Assembly (NCBI RefSeq): GCF_000025605.1
Contig: NC_013894.1
Location: 729,529-793,528, forward strand
DNA: 64,000 nt
DNA from: Thermocrinis albus DSM 14484
GTDB lineage: Bacteria > Aquificota > Aquificia > Aquificales > Aquificaceae
Reading direction: 5' to 3'
The position numbers were made by a program, and so were the translations under genes. The notes beneath the pieces are model-generated. The model saw only the letters and a program-made list of their open reading frames with translations, ran no database searches and was not told the DNA's origin. Below, piece by piece: positions 39,532 to 45,782 of this stretch (its first letter is position 1; each line of letters starts with the position of its first letter).

Positions 39532-41025
39532 ATGAGGGGTTTTTACGCCAATCTCATACTACTGCTGGTCATAGTACTGTCTTGTCTCGCCATTCTCTAT
39601 TACAGACCTCCCAACTTGGGTCTTGACCTGAAGGGCGGTGTTTCCATGGTGTTGGAACCAGACTTGGCCTATGCTCTACGACAGGAGTACGAACGGTACT
39701 CCTCTGAAGTGTACGCACAGCTAAGAGATAAGGGTATTCAGGTGTTGGATGTGATTCCGTCCGAAAAGGGTCTAAAGGTGGAACTCCTACAACCTCAGGA
39801 CTCCCAAAAAGTGGGGCAACTCATAAAGGAAAAGTTCCCCTCTTTTGAGACTTTTACCGAGGAAAGAGGAGGTTTGTACCTGAAACTGAAGGAGGAGGAA
39901 ATAAAAAAACTACAGCTCGGCATACTGGAACAAACGCTTGACGTCATCAGAAAGAGGATAGATGAACTGGGGGTTGTTCAGCCAGTGATAACACGCCTTG
40001 GAGAAAACAGGATATTGGTAGAACTTCCCGGAGTCACCGACATAGAGAGGGCCAAGAAGGTAATAGGCAGAACAGCTCTTTTGGAACTAAAACTGGTGGT
40101 GGACACAGGACCCAAGGAGAAACTGATCACAGAACTCACCAAAGATACGGAGCTATTACCTTCCTTAAAGGGTGACGAGTGGTTCCTCTTAGAGAGAAAG
40201 CCTGTTATAACAGGAGCTGACCTGAAGACCGCTTACACCAGCACCGACGATATGGGAAGCCCCGCTGTCACCTTTGAGCTCACCGACAGGGGTTCTAAGG
40301 TTTTCGCGGAAGCCACCGAGAAAAACATAGGGCGTAGACTGGCCATAGTGCTGGATGGTAAGGTGGTATCGGCCCCCGTCATACGTAGCAGGATATCGGA
40401 CAGGGGGCAGATATCGGGAGGTTTTACCTTAGAGGAGGCCCAAAACCTGGCCATAGTGCTCAGAGCAGGTGCTCTTCCCACCAACGTTCTCTTTCTCCAA
40501 GAAACAGTAGTAGGTCCTTATCTGGGAAAGGATGCTGTGGAACAGGGTTTCAAGTCAGGTATAGTAGGCTTTCTGTTGCTGGTACTCCTTCTGGTAGGGC
40601 GTTATAAGACGGCAGGTGTGACCGCCAACCTCTCCATACTTCTCAATACTCTCATGCTCTTTGCTCTTATGAGTCTTTTAGGTGCCACTCTTACATTGCC
40701 GGGTATAGCTGGAATAGTGCTCAACATGGGTATAGCGGTGGACTCCAACGTACTTATCTTTGAGAGGGTACGTGAAGAACTCAGGTTAGGTAATAGTGTG
40801 AGAAAGGCTATAGAGCTGGGCTACAGGAGGACCTGGAACACCGTGTGGGACACCCACGTGACCCTACTGGTGGCTTCCCTGATACTGTTCCAGTTCGGCA
40901 GCGGCCCTGTGAAGGGTTTTGCCACCACCCTCACCGTAGGAACCATAGCTTCTTTTGTGTCCAACGTTTACTTTGCCAAGTACTTCTTGGAAGTCCTCTA
41001 CAAACTTAAACTCTTCAAGATATAA
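39532..41025 (+). CDS. secD: Protein translocase subunit SecD
   Basis: A 497-residue inner-membrane protein using the proton gradient to assist Sec export. It has an N-terminal membrane segment followed by GLDLKGGVSMVLEPD, a large periplasmic P1 domain, and the C-terminal RND-like bundle with GIAVDSNVLIFERVREEL. TAAAAT lies 12 nt before the ATG. secF, its usual partner, is not next to it: the next gene is convergent and unrelated. Confidence 0.95.
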   Translation: MRGFYANLILLLVIVLSCLAILYYRPPNLGLDLKGGVSMVLEPDLAYALRQEYERYSSEVYAQLRDKGIQVLDVIPSEKGLKVELLQPQDSQKVGQLIKEKFPSFETFTEERGGLYLKLKEEEIKKLQLGILEQTLDVIRKRIDELGVVQPVITRLGENRILVELPGVTDIERAKKVIGRTALLELKLVVDTGPKEKLITELTKDTELLPSLKGDEWFLLERKPVITGADLKTAYTSTDDMGSPAVTFELTDRGSKVFAEATEKNIGRRLAIVLDGKVVSAPVIRSRISDRGQISGGFTLEEAQNLAIVLRAGALPTNVLFLQETVVGPYLGKDAVEQGFKSGIVGFLLLVLLLVGRYKTAGVTANLSILLNTLMLFALMSLLGATLTLPGIAGIVLNMGIAVDSNVLIFERVREELRLGNSVRKAIELGYRRTWNTVWDTHVTLLVASLILFQFGSGPVKGFATTLTVGTIASFVSNVYFAKYFLEVLYKLKLFKI

Positions 41026-42200
41026 TGTACCTTGTCTTTGTCTCTATCTCTTCTTCTCTCGTCCTGTCTGAACTCTAAACTTCCACCGGCGTGTCGTACA
41101 CTGATATGCTCTACCCGAAAGCCGAGACCCTCAAGACTGTTCACCAATCTCCCCAATTCCAATTCTCTTATATGTAATGGGTTATTACTCCCAAAATCTG
41201 CCCTCACGCTTATAGTATCCCTAACAAATCTTATCTTCAGATCTACATCCTCCATTCTCACGTTGATGGTTTTCACCATCTTTGATTCTTGGAGGGGCAA
41301 AGATGGGGAGGTAGCTTCCTTAACGTTCTCCGTAATCTCTGATCCATCCTTGGGAAGAGAGAGGAATGCGTTTACCTCAGAAGATGGGGGATATCTTTTA
41401 GAATCTTGGAGAACAAAGGTCTCTTGGTGATTTGCCTCTGAGAGTGGAGGGGAAGGTGTTATTGGATGGCGTCCCTTCTGGCTCAGGTAAGGAACTTCTT
41501 TGAGATCTTGGAAAGGGAAAACCACTTCTTGGTGGTTTGCCTTTGGTGATGGAGATAGAGATGTCACCCGATGCTTTCTCACATCCTCTTTTGACTCTTG
41601 GAGGGGTAAAGAAGGGGTGGCAGCTTCCTTGATGTTTTCCGTAATCTCTGACCCATCCTTGGGAAAAGAGAGGAATGCGTTTACCTCAGAAGATGGGGGA
41701 TATCTTTTAGGATCTTGGAGAACAAAGGTCTCCTGGTGATTTGCCTCTGAGAGTGGAGGGGAAGGTGTTATTGGATGACGTCCCTTCTGGCTCAGGTAAG
41801 GAACTTCTTTGAGATCCTGGAAAGGAAAAACCACTTCTTGGCGGTTTGTCTTTGGTGATGGAGATAGAGATGTCACCCGATGCTCTTCCTCCTGAGGGTT
41901 TTGAAAAGGGAAGATCTCTAATGCCTTTGATAGAAAAGGTGAAGGAACCGATGGATCATGTTCCTCTTGGCTGGGAAGATAAGCCTCCTGAAGGGTTTGG
42001 AAGGGGAGAAGCTCTAAATAACTGACCTGATGGGGCGGCGGTAAAGGTAGATATGTTATCTTTTTCCGTGACTCTTCTTCAGGGATTTCTCTTTGAGAAA
42101 GAATACATTCCTCGAGAATCTGAAAGAAAGACTCTTCGTTAGTTAACTGAATCGTTTCTCTTTGCCCTCCCCACAGGAGCATGTCTACGATCCTTATCAT
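40998..42200 (-). CDS. FliK-like, proline-rich repeat protein
   Basis: A 400-residue protein. The C-terminal ~90 residues (TINVRMEDVDLKIRFVRDT, then LHIRELELGRLVNSLEGLG and VEHISV) resemble the conserved C-terminal domain of flagellar hook-length control protein FliK. The long middle is Pro/Ser/Glu-rich and built of repeats, including a 103-residue unit present twice, as expected for a FliK ruler region. The start at 42200 is supported by conserved-looking sequence and by codons ceasing to make sense upstream, opposite hisF. The assignment is tentative because no other flagellar genes are in the window. Its 3' end overlaps secD by 28 bp. Confidence 0.5.
   Translation of the reverse strand: MIRIVDMLLWGGQRETIQLTNEESFFQILEECILSQREIPEEESRKKITYLPLPPPHQVSYLELLPFQTLQEAYLPSQEEHDPSVPSPFLSKALEIFPFQNPQEEEHRVTSLSPSPKTNRQEVVFPFQDLKEVPYLSQKGRHPITPSPPLSEANHQETFVLQDPKRYPPSSEVNAFLSFPKDGSEITENIKEAATPSLPLQESKEDVRKHRVTSLSPSPKANHQEVVFPFQDLKEVPYLSQKGRHPITPSPPLSEANHQETFVLQDSKRYPPSSEVNAFLSLPKDGSEITENVKEATSPSLPLQESKMVKTINVRMEDVDLKIRFVRDTISVRADFGSNNPLHIRELELGRLVNSLEGLGFRVEHISVRHAGGSLEFRQDERRRDRDKDKVHYILKSLSL
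41281..41575 (-). repeat. Tandem repeat copy 1 in FliK-like gene
   Basis: A 295-bp unit repeated at 41590-41884 with a period of 309 bp (103 codons). My hand alignment gives 17 mismatches (about 94% identity) and no gaps. Many differences are silent or conservative at protein level. It encodes the Ser/Pro-rich ruler-like segment. Confidence 0.9.
41590..41884 (-). repeat. Tandem repeat copy 2 in FliK-like gene
   Basis: The second copy of the 309-bp-period repeat. Within each copy a degenerate unit of roughly 33-35 residues recurs (FPFQ.L.E..YLS / FVLQD.KRYPPSSE), and weaker copies continue toward the N-terminus. Confidence 0.9.
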
Positions 42201-42221
42201 GGGTTTAAAATATAACACCGT
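42201..42221. promoter_or_regulatory. 21-bp divergent start region, FliK-like gene/hisF
   Basis: Two ATGs point away from each other across 21 bp with no Shine-Dalgarno on either side. TAAAAT (42206-42211) or TATAAC (42211-42216) could serve hisF, and TATATT/TATTTT on the minus strand the FliK-like gene. Transcripts would start at or very near the start codons. Confidence 0.4.
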
Positions 42222-42978
42222 ATGTTGGCAAAGCGTATCATACCTTGTCTCGATGTGGATAAAGGTAGAGTGGTGAAGGGGGTCCGTTTTCAGAATTTGG
42301 TAGACGCAGGTGACCCTGTACAGATAGCTGCCGAGTATGAGAGACAGGGTGCCGATGAGTTGGTTTTTTTGGATATAACAGCCTCTGCCGAAAACAGGAA
42401 AACAATGATAGAGGTAGTGAGGGAGGTGGCTCAGACGGTTTTTATGCCTTTCACGGTGGGTGGTGGTGTGTCCACCCTGGAGGATATAAGACTTCTCCTC
42501 TCGGCGGGGGCCGATAAGGTGTCCATCAACACAGCGGCTGTGAAAAACCCTCAGCTGGTCTATGAGGCTGCCAGGAGATTCGGTTCTCAGTGTGTGGTGG
42601 TAGCCATAGATGCCAAGAGAAAGGGAAACAGCTGGGAGGTTTACATTCACGGGGGTAGAACCCCCACCGGTATAGATGCGGTGGAGTGGGCTAGGAGGGT
42701 GGAGGAGCTGGGAGCGGGTGAGATACTCCTTACCTCTATGGATACTGACGGTACAAAGAGAGGATACGATATAGAGCTGTGTAAAGCTGTGGCCAACGCG
42801 GTCAAGATACCCGTTATAGCATCCGGTGGCGCCGGTAGAATGGAACACTTCTACCAGGTCTTTTCTATGACCCACGTTAGTGCAGCCCTTGCCGCCTCTC
42901 TCTTTCATTTTGGTGAGGTTCTTATTCCGGATCTTAAGAGGTATCTGAAGGAAAGGGGAGTAACAGTGAGATACGACT

Positions 42979-42992
<14 letters not shown>
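42222..42992 (+). CDS. hisF: Imidazole glycerol phosphate synthase cyclase subunit
   Basis: A 256-residue TIM barrel of histidine biosynthesis that converts PRFAR with ammonia to IGP and AICAR. It starts with [20 protein letters not shown] (catalytic Asp11) and has [24 protein letters not shown] and the second catalytic Asp in [13 protein letters not shown]. The NUDIX gene overlaps its end by 14 bp. Confidence 0.96.
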
Positions 42993-44103: not shown

Positions 44104-44688
44104 ATGGAGGTCTTTGTACTGGATACCAGTGTCTTTACAAACCCGGACGTCTACTCCCAGTTTGAGAAGGATCAGTTGGGTGCCATAGAGGATTTCTTGA
44201 GTCTGGCACCCCACACGGGTGCTACTTTTTTCATGCCTACATCCATCTACGATGAACTCTGTAAGATGGTGGATCTGGGTCATCTAAAGCCACGTTTTGA
44301 GTTGGTGGTGAGAATAAGATCACCCAGAAGGTACAACCTAACTGTACCTGCGGAATTTCTGTACGAGTTCATAGAGGACGTGCGCTCTCGCATCAACAAA
44401 GGCCTAAGGATAGCAGAGGAGCACACACGGGAAGCAGGTAGGTTAACGGAGGAAGAGGTGGGAAAACTCATCAACCGCCTGAGGGAGAAGTACCGAGAAG
44501 CTCTCAGAACCGGCATCATAGACAGTAAGGAGGACGTAGATGTACTTCTTCTGGCTTACGAACTGGATGGCATACTGGTCACAGGGGACGAGGGCTTACG
44601 TAGGTGGGCAGACAGGGTGGGGATAAAGCTCATCGATCCCAAAAGTTTCAGGTACATCTTGGAAAATCTCGTCAAGCTACGCCCTTAA
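44104..44688 (+). CDS. HARP-type protein-only RNase P candidate ('RNA ligase partner', PIN domain)
   Basis: A 194-residue PIN-like nuclease of the family first annotated as RNA ligase partner and later shown in Aquifex (Aq_880) to be a minimal RNA-free RNase P that trims tRNA 5' leaders. The acidic residues D7, D140, D144 and D162 match the spacing of the catalytic Asp set of that family with a two-residue shift, and a helical arm (about 85-135) fits the oligomerisation/substrate arm. Its 3' end overlaps the convergent RNA ligase gene by 4 bp. The identification is from memory of the family, not a search. Confidence 0.85.
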
Positions 44689-45782
44689 TCAAAGACAGAA
44701 CCTCCCCCCAACACGTGACCCAAAAACCCCGTCATGTTGAGATAGACTCTGTCAAACTCCAAAATCCAGTAAGATCCCTCCTGTTTTAAGCCCCTCTCTA
44801 TTATCTGTACCTGACTGGAAGAATGTTGTATCTGTTCCATAAACAGTAAAGCGCTCTCTTTCTTCCTGAACCTGCACCTGAAAGTTCTGTAAACCCTCCC
44901 CTCCTCTTTGGACTGTCTTATAGCCTCAAAGATCCCCTCCAAAAAGGCGGAACCTAGTTCCTTTAGCAGGTCTTCCTCCAGCTGAAGTCCTTCCTCTTCC
45001 ATAAAAAGAGCTAATCTCAGGAGCCGGTTGGTGTAGTAATCAGCAGGCAAACCCATCAGATTGAGAGAGGTGATCCTTATATCCTGCAGGTTGGCATAGC
45101 TGGTGATGTACTTGACACGTTTGTCCCTTTCCGAATCTTCCTTGAAAACAACACCCTCACGACCCTCTTCATTCAGCCTTCTGAGAAGAGCTTTTAACTC
45201 TCCGATTTTGGAAACATCGTAAAGACCATACCTTTCCACAGAGGGAAGCCGATACTTCTCTATGAGCTGTAACTTCTGCCTATAAGGTAAGAACCTCTGC
45301 TCTCCCTTTACCATAACGTCAAAGACGAAGAACCTTATATCCTCACGTATGTAGGGAGGACTTTCATCTACGTAAGGGTTCTCTGGACCTGCCACCTCTG
45401 CACACAGTACAAGGTGAGGGTTCTCCTTAAAGAAATCTGCATCTATAAATTCCTCTACCCTATCTGTGGTGAAGGGGCACACAAAACCGCCTCTCGTAAC
45501 AGCCAACACTTGCCCTTCGTGATAGAAGATACGCACGTTGTATCCATCCACTTTCTCCTCTACAAAGAAGGGAGCATTGAACTGTTCTCTTAGACCCGAA
45601 GACAACTGAAATATCCTACCTATGTGTGGGTATCCCCAGATCACGCTCTCCTTGAAAAGAATGGTACCTCTCGGTATGTCTTTAAAGTCGTCGGTGAAAC
45701 GCAAGTACTCAAGACCCCTGTAGTTTTCACCCTTCACTTTGTTTTTTCTGAGGGCTTCCTTTACCAGTTCAGGGCTCAGCAC
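44685..45782 (-). CDS. ATP-dependent RNA ligase, Rnl3 family
   Basis: A 365-residue nucleotidyltransferase. The adenylation motif I is [11 protein letters not shown] (Lys near 78, KxDG), with later motifs [17 protein letters not shown] and VKYI, and a C-terminal helical domain typical of the archaeal/Aquificales Rnl3 group, which ligates or circularises RNA ends. The start is GTG with TAAAAT ending 7 nt upstream and no Shine-Dalgarno. It lies between HARP and ffh. Confidence 0.88.

Follow-up and report, generated by a model that had tools for sequence, protein, structure and literature searches.

In Salmonella the length of the flagellar hook depends on the length of the protein FliK. Variants of 363-785 amino acids (aa) gave hooks of 42-135 nm with a linear increase of 0.2 nm per inserted residue, and with FliK of 310 and 335 aa hook length was only partly controlled, as described in PMC6126814. 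An in-frame internal duplication of 100 aa is reported to have arisen in the laboratory as a suppressor in a shortened Salmonella fliK (PMC6972891), and the repeat number of YscP is described as varying among natural Yersinia strains (PMC3469391). Here we analyzed a stretch of 64 kb (positions 729529-793528 of the complete 1,500,577-bp genome of Thermocrinis albus, referred to as the window), which contains a divergent fliK-like gene of 400 aa at window positions 40998..42200 on the minus strand. According to PMC3035279, the T. albus strain HI 11/12T moves by means of a monopolar monotrichous flagellum.

The window gene is fliK as judged by gene order, co-occurrence and layout, and the sequence support, though weak, is consistent. 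Very probably it encodes a FliK-type ruler with the functions of export, measuring and FlhB switching, and a duplication in T. albus took this ruler from 297 to 400 aa, which would make the hook about 21 nm longer. According to the proposed mechanism the N-terminus with an F-x-x-x-hydrophobic motif would lead to secretion through the flagellar type III export gate during hook growth, and the repeat-built middle would serve as the tape measure. Once the hook is long enough, the Flg_hook-type C-terminal domain would contact the cytoplasmic part of FlhB, and export would switch from hook protein to flagellin. The kind of protein is already known. With regard to Pfam, NCBIfam and the open-licence literature in PubMed Central (PMC), the family as well as its natural lengthening appear to be new.

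Orthologues of the window gene were present in 49 other Aquificota genomes. They derive from a profile of 18 C-termini which was searched through 136 Aquificota genomes and matched 60 of them at E 0.01; 17 other genomes had supplied rows of the profile and thus match by construction. The loci were examined in those 49 genomes, apart from T. albus, whose match had an E value of at most 1.7e-5, and neighboring genes were identified by BLAST against one reference set with Pfam-based names. In 28 of the 49 genomes the orthologue was located directly before a tetratricopeptide repeat (TPR) gene of the same orientation, and the two overlap by 61-151 bases according to the open reading frame (ORF) calls. 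Next to the TPR gene followed flgB and flgC in 22 of these genomes and fliF in 20, and five of the six TPR-linked genomes without flgB stop at a contig edge. Nine genomes, all of one genus, resembled the window since the orthologue converges on secD at 3-11 bases. In the remaining 12 neither a TPR nor a secD neighbor was seen; these were six other Thermocrinis (one with a fragment of 45 aa), the genera g2 and g10, and one contig-edge locus of g4.

The family also co-occurred with the flagellar export apparatus. Among 64 Aquificaceae genomes the family and FlhA were both found in 41 and both missing in 13, with five genomes carrying only the family and five only FlhA (Fisher P 3.4e-6, relatedness ignored). 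All ten discordant genomes are drafts of 70-92% completeness. The linkage to flagellar hook/rod genes (22 of 49 loci) and to export genes (co-occurrence with FlhA) is a feature expected of FliK. On the other hand, the position itself differs from E. coli, where fliK sits between fliJ and fliL, whereas members of the present family are found upstream of TPR-flgB-flgC-fliF, alone, or beside secD. As a separate observation, seven Aquificaceae genomes that are 99% complete had neither an FlhA match nor a family member, namely G027, G020, G012, G076, G033 (g7) and G078, G083 (g11), which points to an apparent loss of the whole flagellum.

In T. albus itself, matches above the Pfam cut-off were obtained for FlgE, FlgC and FliF, and the family matches to flagellin, FlhA and FliG likewise exceeded the cut-off. 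The matches of FlgD and FlgB fell just under the cut-off, and FlgK, FlgL and FlgG were named by eye from family matches. All of these were spread over nine separate places in small clusters, and for the families searched no flagellar match was found within the 64-kb window. Since the flagellar genes of T. albus are scattered, the want of flagellar neighbors tells little. The original prediction, made from the letters of the window, had proposed a FliK-like ruler and at the same time taken the lack of nearby flagellar genes as a hint to some other function. The first of these proposals gained support from the flagellar genes of the genome, flagellin and FlgE included, and from a C-terminal match to Flg_hook (see below). 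The second found no support, in view of the nine scattered places and the 22 of 49 genomes with TPR-flgB-flgC downstream of the gene.

The flgB operon of T. albus opens with a TPR gene of 601 aa, and no fliK was found ahead of it. This gene (L047:5462-7264, plus strand, at 620-622 kb of the T. albus genome) encodes a TPR protein of about 600 aa with a signal-peptide-like start, as judged by eye, and lies before flgB. In 22 genomes an equivalent TPR gene, e.g. L033:5725-7530, separates the fliK-like gene from flgB; the product is an unnamed flagellar-operon protein worth study. Additionally, a gene resembling TnpB by eye (L048:8488-9864, minus strand, T. albus about 350-352 kb) was located immediately upstream of flgD-flgE; it may be tied to rearrangement of the flagellar gene order.

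The window protein shares its general layout with FliK (PF02120) of Salmonella and E. coli, i.e. a putative export N-terminus, a flexible ruler and a putative C-terminal switch domain with a tail. The gate recognition motif of flagellar export has the form F-x-x-x-hydrophobic. Close to the N-terminus of the window protein the sequence SFFQIL (aa 24-29; 42114..42131, minus strand) represents a candidate hook-type export or gate recognition motif, comparable to the FLALL-type motif of E. coli FliK (DFLALL at aa 28-33). Of 18 sequences with a complete N-terminus (the window protein and its homologues), 17 showed the pattern polar-F-x-x-hydrophobic-hydrophobic within the first 80 residues, mostly near residue 30; in 500 shuffles the mean was 3.0 and no shuffle exceeded 8 of 18. 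Early flagellar export substrates are described as carrying a short hydrophobic gate recognition motif together with a hydrophobic N-terminal signal (PMC8983047). SFFQIL may act as such a signal in the window protein.

The middle of the protein (aa 41-308; 41277..42080, minus strand) is rich in Pro, Ser and Glu, probably disordered as judged by this composition, and could represent the ruler or linker. By length and composition it corresponds to the long ruler of variable length that is found between both ends of FliK; homologues that were not under 280 aa ranged from 300 to 824 aa. The region is built of degenerate units which are 28-39 aa apart. A motif of the hydrophobic-Pro-hydrophobic-Gln type recurs at residues 65, 97, 125, 159, 198, 228, 262 and 301, and the best BLOSUM62 self-match of the single-copy ruler (61) was reached by none of 300 shuffles. 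The degenerate units of about 34 residues mentioned in the original prediction are therefore real and the figure is a fair mean; an exact period does not exist. The homologue sets found first (19 proteins for the ruler comparison, and the N-terminal set) predate the set of 49 genomes. The 19 proteins include L095; L091-L095 duplicate the records L026, L024, L023, L141 and L150 and were left out of the neighborhood count.

Superimposed on these older units is a large tandem duplication. Tandem Repeats Finder (TRF) detected one strong array at 41281-41884 (period 309, 2.0 copies, 94% matches, score 1089), and the second and last row for the 64-kb window had a score of 52. Self-alignment at an offset of 309 resulted in 295 aligned bases with 17 mismatches, here named copy A (41590..41884) and copy B (41281..41575), both on the minus strand. 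This confirmed the 309-bp tandem duplication, with 17 differences between the copies, that had been noticed beforehand. Since 309 equals 3 x 103, the reading frame is kept over a period of 103 codons and the protein is extended by 103 residues; a single-copy protein would have 297 aa. At the protein level the best ungapped self-match scored 259, with a maximum of 16 among 20 shuffles. Each 103-residue copy holds three of the hydrophobic-Pro-hydrophobic-Gln type motifs, which indicates that the block consists of several older units duplicated as one.

The differences between copies A and B were distributed unequally over the codon positions, with 10 at the third, 6 at the first and 1 at the second position. 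The estimates of nonsynonymous (dN) and synonymous (dS) divergence were 0.032 and 0.157 by NG86, 0.030 and 0.143 by YN00, and 0.037 and 0.108 by maximum likelihood, respectively. The bias in codon position together with dN of 0.030-0.037 against dS of 0.108-0.157 demonstrates that the copies diverged as coding sequence, with a method-dependent dN/dS of about 0.2-0.35. The 17 differences and their codon-position bias led to the rejection of a duplication that is fresh or an artefact. The same 17 differences argue against rapid expansion and contraction as in a contingency-type variable number tandem repeat, a statement based on one genome per species.

No comparable duplication was found among the 49 orthologues, seven of which are fragments of less than 280 aa in which the ruler is incompletely visible. 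With a TRF score of 50 as the limit, no tandem array in any of the 49 had a period longer than 22 bp, and the best other protein self-match spans 19 aa. In particular, the duplication is missing from the complete orthologues in other Thermocrinis genomes. This is in agreement with the description of the duplication as recent, whereas a dS of 0.11-0.16 shows that it is not fresh. The suppressors described in PMC6972891 likewise gained about 100 residues by an internal duplication that kept the frame. Those arose in an engineered deletion mutant and are located where the switch domain begins, whereas the T. albus duplication is natural, lies within the ruler and consists of diverged copies. Also unlike FliK of Salmonella and E. 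coli, the T. albus ruler is built of repeats and contains this 103-aa duplication.

Applying the Salmonella value of 0.2 nm per residue to 103 aa, a hook longer by about 21 nm is predicted. Both Salmonella FliK and Yersinia YscP suggest that repeat number may change hook length, and with 400 aa the T. albus protein is close to Salmonella FliK with its 405 aa. One alternative to be considered is a FliK with a neutral duplication, in which the middle is a loosely constrained linker and the hook length of T. albus is set otherwise. The hugely variable sequence and length of the ruler in homologues would fit this, as would orthologues of 306 and 332 aa that lack such a duplication. However, both copies kept the frame with dN/dS of about 0.2-0.35, and in Salmonella hook length is linear with FliK length over the range given above, with partial control by the two shortest variants. 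We therefore regard a neutral duplication as rather unlikely.

The C-terminal part comprises a switch-type domain (aa 310-377; 41070..41273, minus strand) with a predicted order of three strands, a helix and two strands, and a charged low-confidence tail (aa 378-400; 41001..41069, minus strand) which ends in SLSL according to the alignment and the model. Most relatives in the C-terminal alignment end in FSLYL, FSLLL or similar. When the C-terminal 93 residues were compared with Pfam, the sole match was to Flg_hook PF02120, and it was weak (14.7 bits against a cut-off of 29.8; E 0.027). Across 42 homologous C-termini Flg_hook was also the commonest Pfam family, with 5 of 42 at E<=0.1 and a best E of 3.3e-4, followed by a family with 3 of 42. 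A profile comparison of the 42-row alignment with 19 Flg_hook-type domains from Aquificota, taken from the 30 loci that a search with Flg_hook had yielded, gave a score of 28.3 (E 3.6e-4), and the maximum of 100 column-shuffled controls was 17.4.

Other searches were less informative. A Pfam scan of the full-length protein gave three sub-threshold and unrelated matches only (best E 0.037), and NCBIfam gave nothing usable for the seven family members scanned. Most members of the family are too divergent for Pfam as well, in which they differ from FliK of Salmonella and E. coli. Two PHROGs families of unknown function matched, the better one with E 6.6e-4 across residues 282-340. Sequence-profile searches of PDB returned neither 2rrl nor 5cuk. 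The model of the C-terminal domain was built from five sequences and had a predicted local distance difference test (pLDDT) score of 70.7. Its fold does not contradict FliK and carries no weight beyond that.

Several observations weigh against the identification as FliK. The N-terminal pattern was picked post hoc, and several of the 18 sequences are closely related. At the C-terminus 37 of 42 sequences had no Flg_hook match at E 0.1, every family score is below the cut-off, and the Aquifex member had no Flg_hook match in Pfam with E up to 10. The 42-row profile scored 15.5 against E. coli FliK alone, where the best of 100 shuffles reached 15.1. With the C-terminal model none of the Foldseek matches reached E 0.001; the switch domain of Pseudomonas aeruginosa PscP (PDB 5cuk) appeared at rank 20 (E 0.08, template modeling score 0.43) with unrelated folds placed higher. 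A second structure aligner did not have 5cuk among its best 50 rows, and Tdp2-type and other unrelated folds headed its list. Regarding gene order, non-flagellar genes come after the TPR gene in the TPR-linked genome G039. Furthermore, the family f3, which we take to be Hydrogenothermaceae, includes 33 FlhA-positive genomes with no family match better than 2.8e-4. Finally, T. albus has a second FliK-like (Flg_hook) protein of 310-328 aa, encoded at 81.7 kb.

This second protein adjoins a gene that matches the C-terminus of FlhB (2e-23), and we assume it to be YlqG/FlhX-like. It could be the real hook ruler, which would leave the window protein as an accessory secreted flagellar factor. Its Flg_hook score of 24.4 bits is higher than that of the window protein, and Flg_hook was matched in 42 of the 136 genomes of the phylum, where the loci inspected (nine and a further three) were by eye of the second-protein type. 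Profile comparison relates the C-terminal domains of both proteins. However, the second type has an apparently folded N-terminal region and no low-complexity ruler, and the inspected loci, many spanning only about 3 kb, contained no hook or rod neighbors. It is the window family that has the layout of FliK, with the N-terminal motif, a long middle of very variable length and the C-terminal domain, and that lies upstream of TPR-flgB-flgC in 22 of 49 genomes. The second protein is thus less likely the ruler, and we give this assignment little credence. A secreted or surface repeat protein without flagellar function that merely resembles FliK, as the weak hidden Markov model support and the missing flagellar neighbor in T. 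albus might suggest, is unlikely to the point of being hardly credible given how the genes are ordered in relatives (TPR-flgB-flgC in 22 of 49), the co-occurrence with FlhA and the common N- and C-terminal features.

The FliK-type ruler also has counterparts in the needle rulers YscP/SctP. These share the logic of ruler and switch, the length of YscP is described as altered by internal repeats as well (PMC3469391), and the match to PscP mentioned above is a weak match in fold. In contrast to YscP/SctP, the linked genes of the window family are flagellar, although no search was aimed at injectisome genes.

Outside Aquificaceae and the family f2, weak profile matches occurred in 10 genomes, of which five were inspected. 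Two of them belong to the family f5, presumably Desulfurobacteriaceae, which had no strong match; the genes concerned code for 568 and 510 aa (E 0.0014 and 0.0081, respectively). By eye both genes are part of a flagellar cluster and are directly followed by a TPR gene and then by flgB-, flgC- and fliF-like genes, and the similarity of this TPR to that of the window family was 1.1e-5 and 2.6e-7. The f5 proteins scored 25.9 against the profile of the fliK-like family (E 7.9e-4, without a shuffled control), 13.4 against the other Flg_hook set and 11.9 against E. coli FliK. Because neither protein has a Flg_hook match in Pfam, one of them lacks the N-terminal pattern and the two latter scores are low, orthology is not claimed for f5; nor is it claimed for f3. 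The weak matches in G095 and G096 (one of two) showed no flagellar neighbor by eye. The match in G056, a member of f3, was rejected as transposase-like by eye, since it belongs to a repeated frame of 244-323 aa found at seven places (C1; L165).

One member of the family is of particular relevance for the literature. The FliG of genome G009 is identical to PDB 3hjl over 328 residues, and the 3hjl protein is named Aa-FliG in PMC3091841; we took this genome as Aquifex aeolicus on the basis of this identity. Its family member has 406 aa, with the C-terminal domain at L038:5841-6167, and is located directly upstream of TPR-flgB-flgC-fliF. The statement in PMC3708937 that Aquifex has no fliK is therefore probably wrong, and the fact that Pfam is blind to the A. 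aeolicus gene may account for the oversight. Among the rows listed by searches of open-licence PMC papers there was no report of an Aquificota FliK. Apparently the fliK-like family is divergent and unrecognized, and its members are barely detected by Pfam and NCBIfam. Going further, the family could be the FliK 'missing' from the Aquifex lineage, older than Aquificaceae and originally placed directly upstream of TPR-flgB-flgC-fliF, a position that the weak matches in the two f5 genomes share, with T. albus as a case in which a too short ruler of 297 aa was naturally rescued or retuned by the 103-aa duplication, in parallel to the suppressors obtained in Salmonella. We put this forward tentatively, as possible though not the likelier course of events. 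That the 297-aa ruler was too short is a guess, because there are relatives with 306 and 332 aa.

With respect to the gene itself, the likeliest start is the ATG at 42200-42198, with an in-frame alternative at 42182 and the stop codon at 41000-40998. A longer ORF reaching up to 42908 was rejected, since 42200-42908 overlaps hisF on the opposite strand. This divergently oriented neighbor (42222..42992, plus strand, from the ORF list) and the convergent secD (39532..41025, plus strand), which overlaps the 3' end of the fliK-like gene by 28 bp, were both named by eye. A functional link between hisF and the fliK-like gene is not supposed. Promoter-like and terminator-like matches differed from shuffled sequence by no more than about one standard deviation. 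Elsewhere in the window, a gene at 44685-45782 (minus strand) lies between genes for a PIN-like protein and ffh, both named by eye; its product presumably resembles an archaeal-type ATP-dependent RNA ligase.

The FlhB of A. aeolicus has been swapped into Salmonella, as reported in PMC3708937, and the structure of its cytoplasmic domain has been solved (PMC3640470). If the assignment is true, a FliK-type gene in A. aeolicus would mean that no special case is needed for this organism, and its protein would be testable against FlhB. The duplication in T. albus would represent a natural in-frame change of the ruler with a predictable effect of about +21 nm, and would make the ruler model testable beyond Salmonella, in a thermophile.

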